57,787 nt of DNA from Thermomicrobiales bacterium (lineage in GTDB: Bacteria > Chloroflexota > Chloroflexia > Thermomicrobiales > CFX8), in assembly GCA_023954495.1 (NCBI GenBank), contig JAMLIA010000013.1:1-57787 (forward strand), in the 5' to 3' direction. Both the position numbers and the translations under genes were made by a program. Below the pieces are notes generated by a model. It was not told where the DNA came from, searched no databases, and was given only the letters and a program-made list of their open reading frames with translations. Shown here one piece after another: positions 7,028 to 40,360 of the stretch. Each line of letters begins with the position of its first letter. The first letter of the stretch is position 1.

Positions 7028-8542
7028 ATGCCTGCCCGTACAACCGGCCAGCCCCCAACAATCACGCTCGCCTTCGCCGCCGATAGCCCGACCGCATCGA
7101 CCGCCGACGCCCTCATCCTCGCAGTCCCGCCAGGCGACGACGCATGGCAGGGCCCTCTTGCTGACGTCGATGGCGCGCTCGACGGTGCGCTGCGTCAGGC
7201 GCTAACCGACGCCGACTTCGACGGCAAGGTCGGCTCGACACTGACGATTCCGACGTTGGGCCGTCTGCCGGCCAAGCGCATCGTTGTCACCGGCCTGCCC
7301 GCCTCGGGCGCTGGCGTCACCGAGACGCGGCGTGCCTACGGCGCAGCCGTCTCTGCCGCCGCGAAGGCCGGCGCGAAGAACATTGCCGCCCCAGCGCCGG
7401 GCGGATCCGAAGGCGAAGTCGCGCGCTACCGCGCTGCGATCGAGGGCGTCCTGCTGGCCAGCTACGACTTCCGCGGCTACAAGGCCAGCCGCGGCGAAGC
7501 CAGCGGCATCGACTCCTGGACGTTCCTGACCACCGAAACCGATGCGGCCCGCAAGGGTGTTGCCGAAGGGTTCGCCATCGCCTCGGGCATCTACCTGGCC
7601 CGCGACCTCGTCGCCGAGCCAGGCCAGACGATCTACCCCGAGACACTGGCCGCCGCCGCGAAGCAGATGGCGACTGACAACGAGCTCGACTACCGTGAGT
7701 ACGACGAGAAGCAGCTAGCCGAGATGGGCGCGAACGCGATCGTCGATGTCGGCAAGGGCAGCGTCCACCCGCCGCGCCTGCTGCACCTCACCTACACGCC
7801 GTCCGGCGAATCGAAGGGCACCATCGCCTTCGTCGGCAAGGGCATCACGTTCGACACCGGCGGCATGAACCTGAAGCCGACCGGCGGCATCGAGACGATG
7901 AAGACCGACATGGCCGGTTCGGCAGCCGTCCTCGGCGCGATGCGCGCCGTCGCCGGACTGGACCTTCCCTTCACCGTCTACGGCATCATCGCCAGCGCCG
8001 AGAACATGCCCAGCGGCACCGCGTTCCGCCCCGGCGACGTCCTGACCGCACTGAATGGCAAGACGATCGAGATCATCTCGACCGACGCCGAAGGCCGCCT
8101 TGTCCTGGCCGACGCACTCGTCTATGCCGCCCGCGAAGGTGCTGACGAGATGATCGACCTGGCGACGCTGACCGGCGCGAAGATGATCGCGCTGGGTGCG
8201 GAGTCGGTCGCCGTCTTCTCCAACGACGACGATTTCGCGGCACGGGTCGTCGACGCCGGCACTGAGGCGGGAGACCTGTTCTGGCACATGCCGCTCTGGG
8301 ACGCGCTCAAGAAGCAGATCAAGAGCGACATCGCCGATATGAAAAACAGCGGTGGCCGTGGCGGCGGCGCGATCACTGCCGCGCTGCTGCTGGCCGAGTT
8401 CACCGAGGGCAAGCCCTGGGTACACCTCGACATCGCCGGCGCAGCTTACACCGACTCAGCACGCGACGATACGCCGAAGGGCCCGACCGGCATCGGCGTC
8501 CGCGCTTTGGTGAACTACCTGGAAGCGAAGGCGCGCGCATAG
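7028..8542 (+). CDS. pepA: Leucyl aminopeptidase (M17 family)
   Basis: The enzyme removes N-terminal residues from peptides in the cytoplasm, normally as a hexamer with two divalent metals per active site. The C-terminal catalytic domain is complete: FVGKGITFDTGGMNLKP (Lys at about 271 and Asp at about 276) and the signature STDAEGRLVLADAL at about 351-364, in which the usual first Asn of the signature is Ser. Further metal and active-site context appears in KTDMAGSAAVLGAM and NSGGRGGGAITAALLL. The length of 504 residues is typical. The ATG at 7028 has GAAAGGA 7 nt upstream and is preferred to an ATG 18 nt earlier. The gene is flanked by terminators on both sides, so it is monocistronic. Confidence 0.95.
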   Translation: MPARTTGQPPTITLAFAADSPTASTADALILAVPPGDDAWQGPLADVDGALDGALRQALTDADFDGKVGSTLTIPTLGRLPAKRIVVTGLPASGAGVTETRRAYGAAVSAAAKAGAKNIAAPAPGGSEGEVARYRAAIEGVLLASYDFRGYKASRGEASGIDSWTFLTTETDAARKGVAEGFAIASGIYLARDLVAEPGQTIYPETLAAAAKQMATDNELDYREYDEKQLAEMGANAIVDVGKGSVHPPRLLHLTYTPSGESKGTIAFVGKGITFDTGGMNLKPTGGIETMKTDMAGSAAVLGAMRAVAGLDLPFTVYGIIASAENMPSGTAFRPGDVLTALNGKTIEIISTDAEGRLVLADALVYAAREGADEMIDLATLTGAKMIALGAESVAVFSNDDDFAARVVDAGTEAGDLFWHMPLWDALKKQIKSDIADMKNSGGRGGGAITAALLLAEFTEGKPWVHLDIAGAAYTDSARDDTPKGPTGIGVRALVNYLEAKARA

Positions 8543-8560
8543 AGCGCAGCCTGCGTTAGC

Positions 8561-8605
8561 AACGAAGCACCCTTGCGAGTTGTCGCAGGGGTGCTTCGTT
8601 GTTGC
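8561..8605 (+). terminator. Terminator hairpin after pepA
   Basis: A long stem of about 17 bp (CAACGAAGCACCC... pairing with ...GGGTGCTTCGTTG, with one G-T pair) encloses a 6-nt loop some 20 nt after the pepA stop. The following GTTGCG gives only a weak T tail, but position and stem strength fit a terminator. Confidence 0.65.
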
Positions 8606-8634
8606 GAGGATGAGCGCGCAAATCCGTTCCCAGG

Positions 8635-8676
8635 AACAGCGCTGGCGCTGTCATCGCCGTGAGGCGACCCTCCCGC
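8635..8676 (+). repeat. Two-hairpin repeat motif, copy R1
   Basis: Stem 1 is ACAGCGC (8636-8642) with GCGCTGT (8645-8651). Stem 2 is TCGCC (8654-8658), loop GTGA, GGCGA (8663-8667), followed by CCCTCCCGC. An 88-bp direct repeat links this copy to R2: both are preceded by AGCGCGCAAATC, at 8613 and 8701. In this copy stem 1 differs in sequence from R2 but still pairs. Confidence 0.75.
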
Positions 8677-8714
8677 AGGCGTGCACTGATTGGCAAAGAA
8701 AGCGCGCAAATCTT

Positions 8715-9072
8715 CCGTACGGACAGGACCCGGCCTGTCCTCGCCGTGAGGCGACCCTCCCGCGTCGAAGTGCAACCTTCCAACCACTGAACCCGCGTGA
8801 CTGGGGGTCTGCATACATCCGCGCATCACGAACATGCGTTATGGCCGTCGAAATGTAGGGGCATATCGCATACGCCCGTATAACACCACGACCTGATCGA
8901 ATCGACAGCCACAGTGTCCGGGTGCCCATTATGGATGGTCATGTATCTGGCCGGGCGTATGCGATACGCCCCTACATTTTGGGGCAGACGCGTGGCGACA
9001 CGTAGAGGCCGCCGTCAACCGAACCGGGAGGGTCGCCTCACGGCGAGGACAGGCCGGGTCCTGTCCGTACGG
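8715..9072. repeat. Nested inverted-repeat cassette A with 48-bp perfect ends
   Basis: The sequence at 8715-8762 is repeated without mismatch as its reverse complement at 9025-9072. Each arm holds the two-hairpin motif (GGACAGG/CCTGTCC stem, then TCGCC-GTGA-GGCGA). Between the arms lies the 129-bp palindromic element at 8851-8979. No gene and no clear target-site duplication is visible. The cassette occupies the whole space between pepA and the small gene downstream of ispH. A second cassette built on the same plan spans 36969-38746, interrupted by an IS. Confidence 0.85.
8851..8979. repeat. Palindromic MITE-like element, copy A
   Basis: Terminal arms at 8851-8878 and 8952-8979 are 28-bp inverted repeats with one mismatch, beginning AAATGTAGGGGC and containing the sub-palindrome CGCATACG/CGTATGCG. 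The internal 73 bp includes a segment (about 8911-8940) that reappears in reverse orientation inside copy B. There is no open reading frame, so any movement would need an enzyme supplied elsewhere. Copies B and C are at 38441-38559 and 40239-40360. Confidence 0.85.
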
Positions 9073-9123
9073 GGGATAGGACGCCGATTGTCTCTCCAAC
9101 GCACTGCACGGGAGGATTCGCCC

Positions 9124-14378: not shown

Positions 14379-15520
14379 CGCACTGGAAGCGCTTCGAGCA
14401 GCCGGTCGATGTCGCTGGCTGTGTTGAAGAAGTACGGCGCGACACGAAAGCCCGACGCCCGTTGCGTCACCGATACGCGCGCATCCTTCAGACGCTGGGC
14501 GATCTCGTCATCTTCGGTCGCGCCACCGCTGGTGAAGGTCAGAATCTGCGACCGCCGCGCCGGTGTGAGATCGGAAACGATCTGATAGCCCGCGCCGGTC
14601 AAGCCCTCGGCCAACGTGTCCAGCAGCGCCAGTGAATGCGCGGCGCTGCGCTCGGGACCAACTTCGGTGACGAGCGAAAGCGATGAATGGAGCGCTGTCA
14701 TTCCGGCCTCGTTGAGACCGCCAGTCTGAAATCGTGCAGCACCGTCGCGCCAGTCGAGCGCATATTCAGGATCGTCGAACGGGCTGCGGACTGACAGACG
14801 ACCAGCGTAGGTTACCTGTAGTCGCTCAGCCGCGCCGGGAGCGAAGACGACGACACCGAGGCCGAACCCGGCCATCAGCCACTTGAAGCAATGGGACACG
14901 ACGGCAGTCGCGCCGAAGTCAGACATGTCGACCGGCTGAATGCCAAGTGCCTGTGTCGCGTCCACGAAGAGCTCAACGCCACGCTCGCGACAGAGTGCGC
15001 CGAGTGCCTGGATGTCGTTCCGATAGCCGTCGATGAATTCGACGTATGAAATCGCCATCGCCCGCGTGCGGTCGTCGATGCTGTCCGCGATCAGATCGAG
15101 GTCGGCGCGGCCAGCTTCGTTGCGCGGCACCAGACGGACGGATACCTCCTGGCGCTGCAAGTTCCGAAACGGATAGACGACCGACGGATATTCGCCTTCG
15201 AGGAGTACGACGTTGTCGCCCGGCCGATAGTCGATGCTGTGGGCCAGCAGGTTCATTCCGTCGGCCAGCGACGGCACCCAGGCGATATCTGCCGGCGTCG
15301 AACCGGTCAATGTCGCCATCATCTGAGCGGTCTCTGCCGCGATGTCGGGACGCTCCGTCTCGAAGAAGTTCGGCGCATCGCCAATGTTGGCGACCCATGC
15401 CTGCGTTGCGCGCACGGTGCGCTGAGGGAATGGGCCGAACGAGGCGGTGTTGAGATACGCCCACTCGGCAGTAAACGGGAACTCGCTCCGCAGCGCTTCC
15501 ACGTCGATCGGTTCGGACAC
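14375..15520 (-). CDS. Class V PLP aminotransferase, tandem copy 1
   Basis: The 381-residue product is a PLP enzyme of the class V group that includes cysteine desulfurases, isopenicillin-N-epimerase-like proteins and EgtE-like lyases. Conserved elements are YLNTASFGPFP (residues 22-32), WVPSLADGMNLLA, FVDATQALG (PLP-ring Asp) and SHCFKWLMAGFG with the Schiff-base lysine at K213. No cysteine-desulfurase loop is recognisable, so the reaction is not defined. The GTG at 15520 follows AGGAGG closely. Without the apparent 41-residue upstream extension it has exactly the same length as its neighbour, of which it is a clear paralogue. Confidence 0.88.
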   Translation of the reverse strand: MSEPIDVEALRSEFPFTAEWAYLNTASFGPFPQRTVRATQAWVANIGDAPNFFETERPDIAAETAQMMATLTGSTPADIAWVPSLADGMNLLAHSIDYRPGDNVVLLEGEYPSVVYPFRNLQRQEVSVRLVPRNEAGRADLDLIADSIDDRTRAMAISYVEFIDGYRNDIQALGALCRERGVELFVDATQALGIQPVDMSDFGATAVVSHCFKWLMAGFGLGVVVFAPGAAERLQVTYAGRLSVRSPFDDPEYALDWRDGAARFQTGGLNEAGMTALHSSLSLVTEVGPERSAAHSLALLDTLAEGLTGAGYQIVSDLTPARRSQILTFTSGGATEDDEIAQRLKDARVSVTQRASGFRVAPYFFNTASDIDRLLEALPVR

Positions 15521-15653
15521 TCGATACCTCCTGTGCGGGGTGCTCGTGAAAACAAGTCGGGGGTTGATGCGAGCGCCGCCCTGCCACGACGCGGCGGCGG
15601 ATTCTCGCCGCCGCGTCGTGTTGACGCCCATGCGATCGGGCAATGTAATCTGA

Positions 15654-16799
15654 TCAGCGCAGCGGCAGCGCGCGCACTAAGCGCTCGATGTCGTCGGCGG
15701 TGTTGTAGAAGTACGGTGAGACGCGGATGCCGCGCCCACGCAGCGTCACGGAGATCTTCGACGCTTCCAGGTCGGCGACGATCTGGTTGTCGCGGTCGCG
15801 GTCACCACTGGTGAAGGTGATGATCTGCGAGCGGTGGTCGGGGTCCATGTCAGACGCGATGTCGTAGCCTTTCTCATCGACGCCCTCGGCGAGGCGCGAC
15901 GTGAGGTCGAACGTGTGGGCCGACGACCAGGCCGGACCGACCTGCGTCACGAGCGACATCGAGCTGAGCAGCGCCGCCAGGCCGAGCTGGTTCAGACCGC
16001 CGGTCTGGTAGCGGCCAGCGCCGTCGCGCCAGTCCAGCGCGTAGTTGTGATCTCCATAATCGACCTTGACCCCCGATCGTCCGGCGTAGGTAACGTCGAT
16101 GCGCTCGATCGCGTCCTCGGCAAAGATGACGACGCCGACGCCGAACCCGGCCATCAGCCACTTGTAGCCGTGCGAGGCAACGGCGCTGACTCCCGTGCCG
16201 ACGAGGTCGACCGGCTGCGCGCCGAGCGATTGAGTGGCGTCGACGAACAGCTCGATGTTGCGCTCGCGGCAGAGCTTGCCGAGCTTGACCAGGTCGTTGC
16301 GGAAGCCGTCCATATACTCGACGTGCGAGATCGCCAGCGCTCGGGTGCGATCGTCCATCGCCGCTTCGATCAGGGCCGGATCGGTGCGGCCCTCGGCGTT
16401 ACGCGGGACGAAGCGGATCTCGACACCGCGGCGCTGGAGATTGAGGAAGGGGTAGACGACCGAGGGGAACTCGTCGGTCGGGATCAGGACGTTGTCGCCT
16501 TCCTTCCAGCTGACGCCGTGGGCGAGCAGGTTCATGCCGTCGGCGAGGGACGGCACCCAGGCGACCATGTCGCCGCTGGTACCGGCCAGGCTGGCGACTG
16601 CCGCTGCGGCCTTGTCCGGCACCGACTCGCGATCGGAAGCGAAGAAGTCGCCGGGGCTGGCGAAATCCTCGGCCCAGCGGTGGACTGCTTCGACGGTACG
16701 CCTCGGGAACGGACCATAGGCCGCGTGGTTCAGGTACGCCCATTCGCCAGCCATTGGAAATTCATCACGCAAAGTCTGAAGGTCAACCGATTGAGCCAC
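15654..16799 (-). CDS. Class V PLP aminotransferase, tandem copy 2
   Basis: This 381-residue enzyme is co-linear with the downstream copy along its whole length: YLNHAAYGPFP, VAWVPSLADGMNLLA, FVDATQSLG and SHGYKWLMAGFG with the PLP lysine. The N-terminal DEFP and C-terminal YFYNTADDIERLVRALPLR also match, so the pair arose by tandem duplication. The GTG start has GGGAGGG upstream. It is transcribed first; 133 bp separate it from the second copy, whose own ribosome binding site is strong. The reaction is unknown; related families include epimerases and C-S lyases. No neighbouring biosynthetic pathway fixes the substrate. Confidence 0.88.
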   Translation of the reverse strand: MAQSVDLQTLRDEFPMAGEWAYLNHAAYGPFPRRTVEAVHRWAEDFASPGDFFASDRESVPDKAAAAVASLAGTSGDMVAWVPSLADGMNLLAHGVSWKEGDNVLIPTDEFPSVVYPFLNLQRRGVEIRFVPRNAEGRTDPALIEAAMDDRTRALAISHVEYMDGFRNDLVKLGKLCRERNIELFVDATQSLGAQPVDLVGTGVSAVASHGYKWLMAGFGVGVVIFAEDAIERIDVTYAGRSGVKVDYGDHNYALDWRDGAGRYQTGGLNQLGLAALLSSMSLVTQVGPAWSSAHTFDLTSRLAEGVDEKGYDIASDMDPDHRSQIITFTSGDRDRDNQIVADLEASKISVTLRGRGIRVSPYFYNTADDIERLVRALPLR

Positions 16800-36968: not shown

Positions 36969-37102
36969 GTGAGGGTTCGCGGCTGGGTTGGACTGTATCG
37001 AGCGGGTGGGAGATCTTTCGGTTGCGACCTCAAGATGACAGAGGGCGGGATTGGCTGTCGGGAAAGCGAGTACTTGATCGTGACGTAGGGACAGCGCTCG
37101 CG
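36969..37102. repeat. Left outer arm of interrupted repeat cassette B
   Basis: This segment is about 85-90 percent identical, in reverse orientation, to 38615-38746. It includes a core (GACTGTATCGAGCGGGTGGG near 36991) also found at 48968-49060, and ends in the first half of the two-hairpin motif (GGGACAGCGCTCGCG), where the IS is inserted. The motif continues on the other side of the IS at 38353-38386. There is no gene in 36806-37102. Confidence 0.75.
37095..37102. repeat. Target-site duplication, left copy
   Basis: CGCTCGCG lies immediately outside the left terminal repeat of the IS and matches 38353-38360 exactly. Removing the IS and one copy restores the uninterrupted hairpin stem GACAGCGC-TC-GCGCTGTC. 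Confidence 0.85.
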
Positions 37103-38352
37103 CCAACGTTGTCGCATTAACCGGGGACAGGCGGCGACCCGTCCTGTGCACAGAGATCCATGAGCAGCGCCATGCCACAGGCACGCTGAAAGGCGACCCG
37201 TGAGACTGCCGCCGGTCGGTGCTGCTCCAGATAGGCCAGCACCGCCGCGACCGTGACCGCGATCACCAGCGTCAACCAGACCGCTTCCGGACTCGTCCCC
37301 AGCGGTCGGATGACCCCCAACTCCTGCTTGAGCCACCGAAAGGTCAACTCAATCTGCCAGCGCTCCCGATACAGCTGTACAACCTCCGCAGCGCTGAGAT
37401 CGTGCCGATCCGTAATGAAGCGCTGCTCAACCCCTGCCGGATTCCGACTGGTAATCAGCCGGATATTAGGCAGCACCGCACCATTCCGATTGTTCGGACT
37501 ACCCAGCGTGATGATGGCATCGCTCACGATCGTGTCACCAGCCGGTGTGTTCGTGTCCGGCACGGACTGCTGCGTCGTGATAGCGATCCGTGCCTGGGGG
37601 TGCAGGCGCGTGATGAAGGCGACCTCAGCCTGCTGGAGGCGCGCAAGATAGCGATGGCCGTAGTAGCCCAGATCGCAGACGATGGTCCAGCCACACCAGG
37701 GTTCGAGGTCAACCGTCGCCAGGAAGGTCGGTCATTGGTCGGGAGATCGGTGACGGTGAGCTGGATGGGGATCGTGTCGGACAACGGCAGAAAGGTCTGG
37801 ACCCGCACGCCCGCATGCGTTCCCGCACGACTCCAGGGACTGCGCGCGGCGCTGAGGGTCACGATGGTGTGATCGAGCGCGACGACATGCTTGGTGGGCA
37901 GGGCGCGTCGTGTGCGCCGGGCGCGCCGACCAGGTGTCTGCTGCGCCAGGGTGGTCACGGCGCTGAGGAGGGCTTCAGCACATGCTGGTGGTCGACTGGT
38001 GGAGGAGCGTGCCAACTGACTGAAGCTGACCCAGTGCGACATGCCCCAGTCCCGCCACATGGCAGGCTCATGCTGAGAGGATGGCGTGGGTCTGGCGCAG
38101 ACTGCCTGCGCCGTGCAGGACATGCAGCAGCAAGGTCCAGAGATGGGCGGTGGCGGGAAAGACCTTCCGATAGCGGTCGGCACCAGGCGTCTGGCCGGCG
38201 GCCTCGACGAGTGGGGCGAGGAACCGACGGAACTGGCGCTGGTGGATGACTGGTTGGCTTGATAGCATGATGGTGGCTCCGCTTGATAGACCGATCGGCT
38301 CGACACCATCAGTCTATCCGGAGCCATCTCTTTTTTAATGCGACAACGTTGG
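37103..38352 (-). mobile_element. IS4-family insertion sequence, 1250 bp
   Basis: The ends are 18-bp perfect inverted repeats starting CCAACGTTGTCGCATTAA (37103-37120 and 38335-38352), bordered by the 8-bp duplication CGCTCGCG. The only gene is a minus-strand transposase that fills the element. The duplication length and the Y-R-E signature of the transposase fit IS4. Because ends and duplication are perfect while the transposase has two frame changes, the insertion is recent, or the frame changes are sequence errors. Confidence 0.92.
37117..38268 (-). pseudogene. IS4-family DDE transposase, two frame changes
   Basis: The coding sequence starts at the ATG at 38268 (GGAG upstream) and would give about 383 residues. 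The N-terminus (VIHQRQFRRFLAPLVEAAGQTPGADRYRKVFPATAHLW) is in one frame until about 38070, where one extra base shifts it. The middle (RDWGMSHWVSFSQLARS, VALDHTIVTLSAARSPWSRAG with the first catalytic Asp) runs to about 37735. There a lost base restores the first frame, which continues with DLGYYGHRYLARL (second Asp) and YRERWQIELTFRWLK, the IS4 Y-(2)-R-(3)-E-(6)-K signature. All catalytic parts are present, so the two compensating indels are the only defects. Confidence 0.88.
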
Positions 38353-38360
38353 CGCTCGCG
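38353..38360. repeat. Target-site duplication, right copy
   Basis: CGCTCGCG immediately follows the right terminal repeat of the IS and equals 37095-37102. Confidence 0.85.
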
Positions 38361-38775
38361 CTGTCATCGTCGTGAGACGACAATTCCTCGTAAACCGAGG
38401 CGTGCTGTACGCGAGGTTCGATTTTGGCGCGTCGCCCTCAAAATGTAAGGGGCGTATTGCATACGCCGGCCGGAATCACGCTCATCCAGCATGGGCACCC
38501 ATGCACCGTGGCTGCCGGTCAAAGCGGGTCAGACAAAACGGGCGTGATACGCCCCTACACACGGGTGCAGACCGTCCCACGCACCGGTGACGACAGTGTC
38601 GCCTCACGGCGATGACAGCGCGAGCGCTGTCCCTGCGTACGATCAAGTATGCCGCCCGACAGCCAACCCAACCCTCTGTCATCTTGAGGTCGCAACCGAA
38701 GATCTCCACCCGCTCGATACAGTCCAACGCAGCCGCGGGCACTCACCGCACCTGCCAAATCAACGGTGAGTCTGC
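38361..38775. repeat. Repeat cassette B, right part
   Basis: In order this gene-free 415 bp holds: the rest of the left two-hairpin motif with stem 2 TCGTC-GTGA-GACGA (38367-38380); the palindromic element copy B (38441-38559); the right motif in reverse (stem 2 at 38599-38612, stem 1 at 38614-38631); and the right outer arm to 38746, which mirrors 36969-37102. Before the IS inserted, the whole cassette would have been about 520 bp. Confidence 0.8.
38441..38559. repeat. Palindromic MITE-like element, copy B (degenerate)
   Basis: The left arm AAATGTAAGGGGCGTATTGCATACGCC and right arm CGGGCGTGATACGCCCCTACA are the same terminal repeats as in copies A and C, with a 4-bp gap and several changes. 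The internal segment 38488-38521 is the reverse complement of the core of copy A at about 75 percent identity, so the copies are related along their length, with B inverted relative to A. Confidence 0.75.
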
Positions 38776-39548: not shown

Positions 39549-40244
39549 ATGAACGATCGACCATTTGGTGAGGCATTGCCCAAAGAGGTGCTGGAACGTG
39601 CGGCGAGCCTGCCAGTCAAGCCTGACGCGGTGATCCTCGAAGGGAAGCGTATCCGTTTGCGCCCGATCGACTTCGAGCGCGACATCGAGCCGCTGCACGC
39701 AAGGTCGAACGGCCAACCCGCTCAGCTCGGAGATCGCAGTATCGACGCCTACGACGCCGATGCCGATGTCTGGCGCTACATGCCGGCTGGGCCGTTTGCG
39801 ACATCCGCAGATCTCGCTGCGTACTTGCGCGGGCTCGACAACACGCCGAATCTGCGCTTGCTCTGCGTTGAGAAGATTGCGACCGGCGAGCAAATCGGGG
39901 CGGCGGCGCTGATGAGCAACGAGCCTGCGCATCTGAAGATCGAGCTGGGCAATATCTGGTACAGCCCGCTCGTACAGGGCACCGGCGCGAACCGCGAGGC
40001 GACCTACCTGATGCTGGCGCACGCGTTCGGGCTGGGTTATCGCCGTGTCGAATGGAAATGCGACTCGCTCAACGCGCGTTCGCGGCACGCCGCCGAGCGA
40101 ATGGGGTTTACGTTCGAAGGCATTCAGGACGCCCACTTCATCGTCAAGGGCCGCAACCGCGACACCGCCTGGTTCCGCATTCTCGACCACGAATGGCCGG
40201 ACGCGAAGGCGCGGCTGGAGGAGATGATGGGGCAACCAATGTAG
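39549..40244 (+). CDS. GNAT N-acetyltransferase, stop codon inside a repeat
   Basis: The 231-residue protein is RimJ/RimL-like: GKRIRLRPIDFERDIEPL near residue 35, a long middle segment (DADADVWRYMPAGPFATSADLAAYLRGLDNTPNLRLLCVEK) and the acetyl-CoA-binding region LGNIWYSPLVQGTGANREATYLMLAHAFGLGYRRVEWKCDSLNARSRHAAERMGFTFEG. The start at 39549 has AAAGGGAAG upstream. Its stop TAG (40242-40244) is part of the left arm of palindromic element C, and the last residues (QPM) are read from the junction, so the repeat may have changed the original C-terminus. The substrate is unknown. Confidence 0.87.
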   Translation: MNDRPFGEALPKEVLERAASLPVKPDAVILEGKRIRLRPIDFERDIEPLHARSNGQPAQLGDRSIDAYDADADVWRYMPAGPFATSADLAAYLRGLDNTPNLRLLCVEKIATGEQIGAAALMSNEPAHLKIELGNIWYSPLVQGTGANREATYLMLAHAFGLGYRRVEWKCDSLNARSRHAAERMGFTFEGIQDAHFIVKGRNRDTAWFRILDHEWPDAKARLEEMMGQPM

Positions 40245-40360
40245 GGGCGTATCGCATACGCCCGTTCAAATGCCTATCCGCCAGAATGGCATCCGCCACG
40301 CCGAACCATCACCGCCACCGTGTCGCGTATCCAGCCGGGCGTATGCGATACGCCCCTACA
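40239..40360. repeat. Palindromic MITE-like element, copy C
   Basis: Arms ATGTAGGGGCGTATCGCATACGCCCG (26 bp, 40239-40264) and its reverse complement at 40336-40360 match the ends of copy A almost exactly. The 71-bp interior is diverged but keeps a GCCACCGTGTC segment like that of copy A. The element fills the entire gap between the convergent GNAT gene and dnaA, ending 5 bp before the dnaA stop. As a hairpin in RNA it could serve as a two-way terminator. It lacks the outer two-hairpin motifs seen around copies A and B. Confidence 0.85.

Follow-up and report, generated by a model that had tools for sequence, protein, structure and literature searches.

GTAG REPs, the REPINs that they form, the RAYTs (TnpA-REP) encoded beside them and the targeting of REPs by insertion sequences are already known (PMC2817692, PMC3116915, PMC3733652, PMC6006769, PMC1525189). 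In a REPIN, two REPs lie as an inverted pair with their feet facing outward (PMC3116915), and published search rules for REPs allow for a single hairpin, with or without an extension through a bulge (PMC6006769), so that they would record only the first hairpin of the repeat described here. RAYTs are regarded as domesticated transposases; the rules for their substrates have been worked out in three gammaproteobacterial systems, with functional tests carried out on one-hairpin REPs, and in two of the RAYTs studied a GTAC foot abolished or redirected cleavage, the published model being that GTAC would either abolish cutting or redirect it to GT or GA (PMC8266576). Insertion at the axis of a REP palindrome has been described for the IS4-family element ISRm22 (PMC1525189), and the double stem-loops at Pseudomonas RAYT genes (PMC3733652) are a precedent for a REP-like unit joined to a further hairpin.

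The window analysed here, a stretch of 57,787 nucleotides from a Thermomicrobiales bacterium (contig JAMLIA010000013.1), holds five copies of a two-hairpin motif, R1 to R5, all of them at the positions that an earlier, sequence-only reading had given. The conserved unit, whose full extent that reading had missed, is about 50 bp long and runs TTCGTA[G/C]-G-hairpin 1-hairpin 2-CNCTCCCGCG; in an alignment on hairpin 2, conservation spans both hairpins with about 8 bases ahead of them and 10 bases behind, then stops, and the most conserved part of the unit is hairpin 2. Subtype A has the foot GTAG, a hairpin 1 of the form GACAGCGC-TS-GCGCTGTC and an extra A ahead of hairpin 2; subtype B has the foot GTAC, the hairpin 1 GGACAGG-ACCNGG-CCTGTCC and no extra base. 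The GTAG foot of subtype A agrees with the GT[AG]G consensus of REP feet, and the GTAC foot of subtype B is a variant outside it. DNA folding of R2 gives exactly hairpins 1 and 2; the folding z-scores are modest (-1.0 to -2.9) and were set aside as evidence. Two subtype-B copies elsewhere in the genome (L034, L054) carry CCGGGT for ACCCGG in the hairpin-1 loop on the same stem, as if template switching or recombination between the arms had flipped the loop.

R1 to R3 lie between a gene for an M17 aminopeptidase, upstream, and a convergent gene. R1 (8627-8677, plus strand; covariance-model match of 69.2 bits) is a subtype-A unit with a degenerate foot, CCAG, hairpin 1 at 8635-8652 and hairpin 2 at 8654-8667. 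R2 (8714-8764, plus strand; 75.4 bits) is a subtype-B unit with the foot GTAC at 8717-8720, hairpin 1 at 8721-8740 and hairpin 2 at 8741-8754, and R3 (9023-9073, minus strand; 68.2 bits; hairpin 2 at 9033-9046, hairpin 1 at 9047-9066, foot at 9067-9070), also of subtype B, is its inverted partner in a REPIN, the two being identical over 48 bp in a self-comparison. R4 and R5 form the other inverted pair and, the insertion sequence (IS) that splits R4 aside, also lie in a gene gap. The left part of R4 (37085-37103, plus strand) comprises the foot GTAG at 37085-37088 and the start of hairpin 1, and the right part (38352-38390, plus strand) comprises the remainder of hairpin 1 and hairpin 2 at 38367-38380; R5 (38589-38639, minus strand; 67.3 bits) is a subtype-A unit with hairpin 2 at 38599-38612, hairpin 1 at 38614-38631 and the foot GCAG at 38633-38636. 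Stem 1 pairs in every copy, as had been claimed, apart from an A.C at the bottom of the R1 stem. The description of stem 2 is borne out, with TCGTC-GTGA-GACGA in R4 and TCGCC-GTGA-GGCGA otherwise; genome-wide, the latter form is found in 54 copies and the former in four, which lie on both subtype backgrounds. A few copies have the loop variants ATGA, GTCA or GGGA, and a subfamily (L118, L119, L153) has a longer hairpin 2 (TCGC...GGGCCATGGCGA).

The IS within R4 (37104-38351) belongs to the IS4 family (Pfam DDE_Tnp_1, NCBIfam IS4), has ends CAACGTTGTCGCATTAA at its junctions and carries a transposase with a broken reading frame. It is flanked by a 10-bp target duplication, GCGCTCGCGC (37094-37103 and 38352-38361), centred on the axis of hairpin 1, and the same CAACGTTGTCGCATTAA end is found at one identical point of hairpin 1 in four REP copies (that of the window, L033:1435, L054:1220 on the minus strand and L119:48).

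Other repeats share these intervals. A second REP family, with one hairpin of the GTAGGGGCGTATCGCATACGCCC type, forms inverted pairs at 8852-8879/8952-8978, 38440-38550 and 40238-40360, two of which are nested within two-hairpin pairs, one of them within R2-R3. Identified by self-comparison, this inner pair consists of a plus-strand unit at 8852-8879 (foot GTAG at 8855-8858, hairpin GGGCATATCGCATACGCCC), of which the genome holds more copies, and a minus-strand partner at 8952-8978 (foot at 8972-8975). In G003, which belongs to another family of the order, hairpins of the same type flank a RAYT gene (L171). R4 and R5 are enclosed by a longer inverted repeat (36969-37103 and 38618-38746, 87% identical), parts of which also occur in the same-genus genome (G001, contigs C20, C206 and C255), and which is probably another dispersed repeat. 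Elsewhere in the window, the neighbouring segments 14403-15643 and 15682-16799 share about 70% DNA identity, with long minus-strand frames in both, and are probably a tandem gene duplication.

The two-hairpin motif is a real, genome-specific repeat family. Its core pattern, with up to 3 mismatches, matches 57 times in the window's genome (3.36 Mb, 152 contigs), 29 times on the plus and 28 times on the minus strand, and a reversed-pattern control gives no match there. The genome-wide covariance search that the sequence-only reading had proposed as a check, with a model built from 32 distinct copies and 97 candidates scored per genome, so that copy numbers are lower bounds, returns at least 85 copies, and the possibility that there were no further ones is thereby refuted. 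The same model finds 8 matches in the one same-genus genome (G001); of the 59 remaining genomes of the order, 10 have one or two matches, all of them weak. Exact core matches are absent from the 60 other genomes of the order, and an exact-pattern scan of 84,980 species yields six single matches and no named relative, which is about the level of chance (an estimated 7 to 8 for a 36-bit pattern searched on both strands of 257 Gb).

The copies, at least 85 in number, fall into 57 clusters, of which 35 are single units; tandem units also occur. Wherever neighbouring copies face in opposite directions, their feet point outward (19 cases, with none inward), and these inverted pairs lie 80-360 bp apart with spacers that vary in both length and sequence and without any target duplication seen around them. 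In the same-genus genome, the genes that flank R1-R3 here are adjacent (83% and 80% identity), and the orthologous site is a 77-bp spacer holding only a terminator-like palindrome (L108). A 591-bp block with R1-R3 (8533-9123) was either gained here or lost there; given the high copy number, gain is the likelier of the two. A corresponding comparison for R4-R5 gave no empty site, the left flank being without a match in G001.

The only Y1 transposase match that Pfam gives for the genome lies at the end of contig C36, 94 bp from a subtype-A copy on the visible flank. The contig ends inside the gene, so that one flank can be read, and the 75 readable residues are the C-terminus of a RAYT (NCBIfam REP_Tyr_transpos, 44.8 bits, below the cut-off for the whole protein). 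This truncated gene, the sole RAYT of the assembly, adjoins subtype A and not subtype B, and no Y1 gene lies between the ends of R2-R3 or R4-R5. The flanks of subtype B were searched for the redirected cutting at GT or GA, and no subtype-specific dinucleotide was seen. RAYT matches occur in 30 of the order's 61 genomes, and GTAG or GTAC hairpins, usually inverted and of species-specific sequence, flank most of the strong loci that were read. In two RAYT genes of the same family (L096, L098), REP pairs are inserted in frame between the HuH and Tyr motifs; in-frame REP insertion has been reported as a feature of RAYT subclass 2.4 (PMC6006769).

The sequence-only reading had taken paired changes in both stems as a sign of selection on structure. 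Within the genome this evidence is modest: 3 of 11 pairs change on both sides, a number that 116 of 500 shuffles match, and the signal is mostly the split between subtypes, GTAG/GACAGCGC versus GTAC/GGACAGG. Selection on structure is supported far better by related genomes than by the five copies. The same-genus genome keeps the subtype-B hairpin 1 with different second hairpins (GGCGCCCGGGCGCC; GCCGTC-CGCA-GACGGC), and G036 has GTAGGGACATGGCTTGCCTTGTCC followed by GCGCC-GCAA-GGCGC. Among the G044 copies listed, 49 of 60 form a second hairpin (at least 6 of 7 pairs within the 17 bases immediately 3' of hairpin 1), against at most 4 of the 60 at 15 other offsets; these copies were chosen by their hairpin 1, the rows of another hairpin-1 family being omitted save three with a second hairpin. 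In G050, 12 of 13 copies have a second hairpin directly after hairpin 1; this count does not include about 14 copies with an interrupted hairpin 1. In the latter, hairpin 1 (GTAGCGGCGATCCCTTGTGGTCG) is broken at one point by the palindrome GTCCTGAGCGAAGTCGAAGGA, a repeat inside a repeat.

The covariation test in relatives took 34 distinct sequences, with 95.4% of cells paired and two-sided changes at 6 of the 7 pairs. Its score of 0.496 compares with 0.171 in shuffles and no more than 0.111 when the partners are slid. Sequences entered this test when 4 or more of the 7 pairs formed, and copies that are related lack independence, which means that shuffle counts are not probabilities, and the weight of the test lies in the slide control and in the separate genomes. 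Hairpin 2 tolerates other sequences while its stem and, in most families, its loop type are kept. In G044 it occurs in two types, GTGGC/GCCAC (13 copies) and GTCGG/CCGAC (41 copies), and every one of the 11 close pairs combines the two types, against 37% expected from their frequencies. This is not a general rule, since in the window's genome hairpin 2 is mostly alike within a pair. In G036, a genome of another family, one locus (L161, contig C286) holds precisely TCGCCGTGAGGCGA downstream of a GTAG REP whose hairpin 1 is unrelated; the likeness may reflect shared origin, transfer or convergence.

The loops of hairpin 2 follow a common rule. The window's genome has GTGA, G036 has GCAA, and G044, G048 and G050 have mostly GCA, GGA or GAA; in all five genomes the loops are closed by a C-G pair; the second-hairpin loops of G001 do not clearly follow the GN(N)A pattern. 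As DNA, GNNA and GNA loops form exceptionally stable, nuclease-resistant mini-hairpins (PMC4686876). Near the RAYT genes of the order, positional controls at +20 to +40 nt are contaminated by REPIN partners (2 to 14 matches), and shuffles and a loop-specific count were used in their place. By that count, six distinct cGNAg hairpins lie directly 3' of GTA[GC] hairpins, where position would predict 0.05; with three genera of a single family as their sources, they represent fewer than six independent origins.

We put the probability at roughly 85% that the motif is a GTAG REP/REPIN moved as RAYT-cut single-stranded DNA, with hairpin 2 as a second part selected for its structure. The sequence-only reading had been unable to name the family; GTAG REP, or REPIN for the pairs, is the name available. 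The other option that it had raised, a DNA-hairpin substrate for transposition, is upheld by the GTAG foot, the outward-facing inverted pairs, the neighbouring RAYT and the empty site. On the model considered here, the foot (GTAG or GTAC) and hairpin 1, which match published elements (PMC8266576), would form the recognised, cleavage-guiding part. A cognate RAYT, a Y1/HuH relative of the IS200/IS605 transposases, would cut the REP, and the REP would spread as single-stranded DNA. Hairpin 2, 3' of hairpin 1, most likely folds first and would hold the 3' side of the REP open as a single strand, and it may serve as a second contact for a RAYT dimer or as a block to reannealing and to 3' exonucleases. 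More tentatively, and at somewhat less than even odds, such units may make up a distinct, bipartite class of REPs in this order, whose RAYT substrate would be a foot-bearing hairpin 1 beside a required hairpin 2 selected for the exceptional stability of the cGN(N)Ag mini-hairpin in DNA, and in which the REPINs of some species need unlike hairpin-2 ends that mark left and right.

The closest rival holds that these are ordinary one-hairpin REPs and that hairpin 2 is a passive passenger, carried along from beside the founding copies. The functional tests of PMC8266576 were done on one-hairpin REPs, and many RAYT-adjacent REP families of the order lack a second hairpin (74 of 84 distinct cores); yet hairpin 2 is the most conserved part of the unit here, and in other genera it recurs directly 3' of hairpin 1 with unrelated sequence and covarying pairs. 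A passenger would not keep stem and loop amid sequence change, and we consider this reading unlikely. It had also been suggested that the motif acts "possibly as RNA", and a structured RNA, whether a regulatory element or the 3' hairpins of an mRNA, spread by some unknown route, would fit with GTGA being a GNRA loop in RNA too, with the paired nature of the changes and with the position of R1-R3 between convergent gene ends, where transcripts may run through. The suggestion fares poorly on several counts: an Rfam search of the window finds only a tRNA, with no family match for the motif; no T-run follows hairpin 1 or hairpin 2; and G.T wobbles in the stems do not significantly outnumber A.C wobbles (20 versus 12, p = 0.22), so that nothing in the pairing demands RNA. 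Furthermore, the inverted pairs are strictly outward, the orthologous site is empty, and the GNA triloops of relatives, special to DNA, speak for DNA, which together make an RNA very improbable. The spacing of the inverted pairs and the identity of R2 and R3 could also suggest a MITE, mobilised by a DDE transposase, with the motifs as its terminal inverted repeats. The spacers are, however, variable, units also stand singly or in tandem, the pairs show no target duplication, and the ends of the IS4-family element are unlike the motif, which serves that element as a target; of all the readings this is the one to which we give the least credence.

If hairpin 2 does act as a selected part of a mobile REP, it would be a new element of RAYT substrates: a hairpin whose loop is stable specifically as DNA, which compensatory change maintains and which one species uses in unlike pairs. 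It would also be clean evolutionary evidence that REPs work as folded single-stranded DNA and not as RNA. The literature consulted does not describe hairpin 2 as a conserved component of REPs, nor a REP built of two adjacent hairpins that shows compensatory change and a rule for its loop. The IS4-family insertion resembles that of ISRm22 into Sinorhizobium REPs, at a constant point on the palindrome axis of a REP hairpin, and differs in host and in its 10-bp target duplication, against 6 bp for ISRm22 (PMC1525189). The ends of IS200/IS605 elements such as IS608 and ISDra2 likewise involve Y1 transposase relatives, subterminal single-strand hairpins and a 5' guide tetranucleotide (PMC6006769), whereas here no transposase gene lies between the paired ends. 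The BIMEs of Escherichia coli join unlike REP subtypes, Y and Z, in inverted pairs (PMC6006769, PMC8266576), as do the 11 pairs of G044, but their units are single bulged hairpins, while the difference in G044 sits in hairpin 2. The double inverted repeats at the RAYT genes ppf 607 of Pseudomonas putida and pfs 4255 of Pseudomonas fluorescens, shown in PMC3733652 (Figure 8B), also join a REP-like unit to a stem-loop, in hundreds of copies; they are described there as a degenerate GTAG-1 unit with an unrelated stem-loop, and it is on this description that the comparison with the present family rests. With the GTAG REPs and REPINs and their RAYTs (PMC2817692, PMC3116915, PMC3733652, PMC6006769), the family shares a GTAG-type foot, a G+C-rich hairpin, high copy number, genome-specific occurrence, outward-foot pairs and, as far as the copies of the window and the truncated gene show, an intergenic position and a RAYT beside one copy, and it differs from them in the GTAC foot of one subtype and in the second, side-by-side hairpin within the conserved unit.
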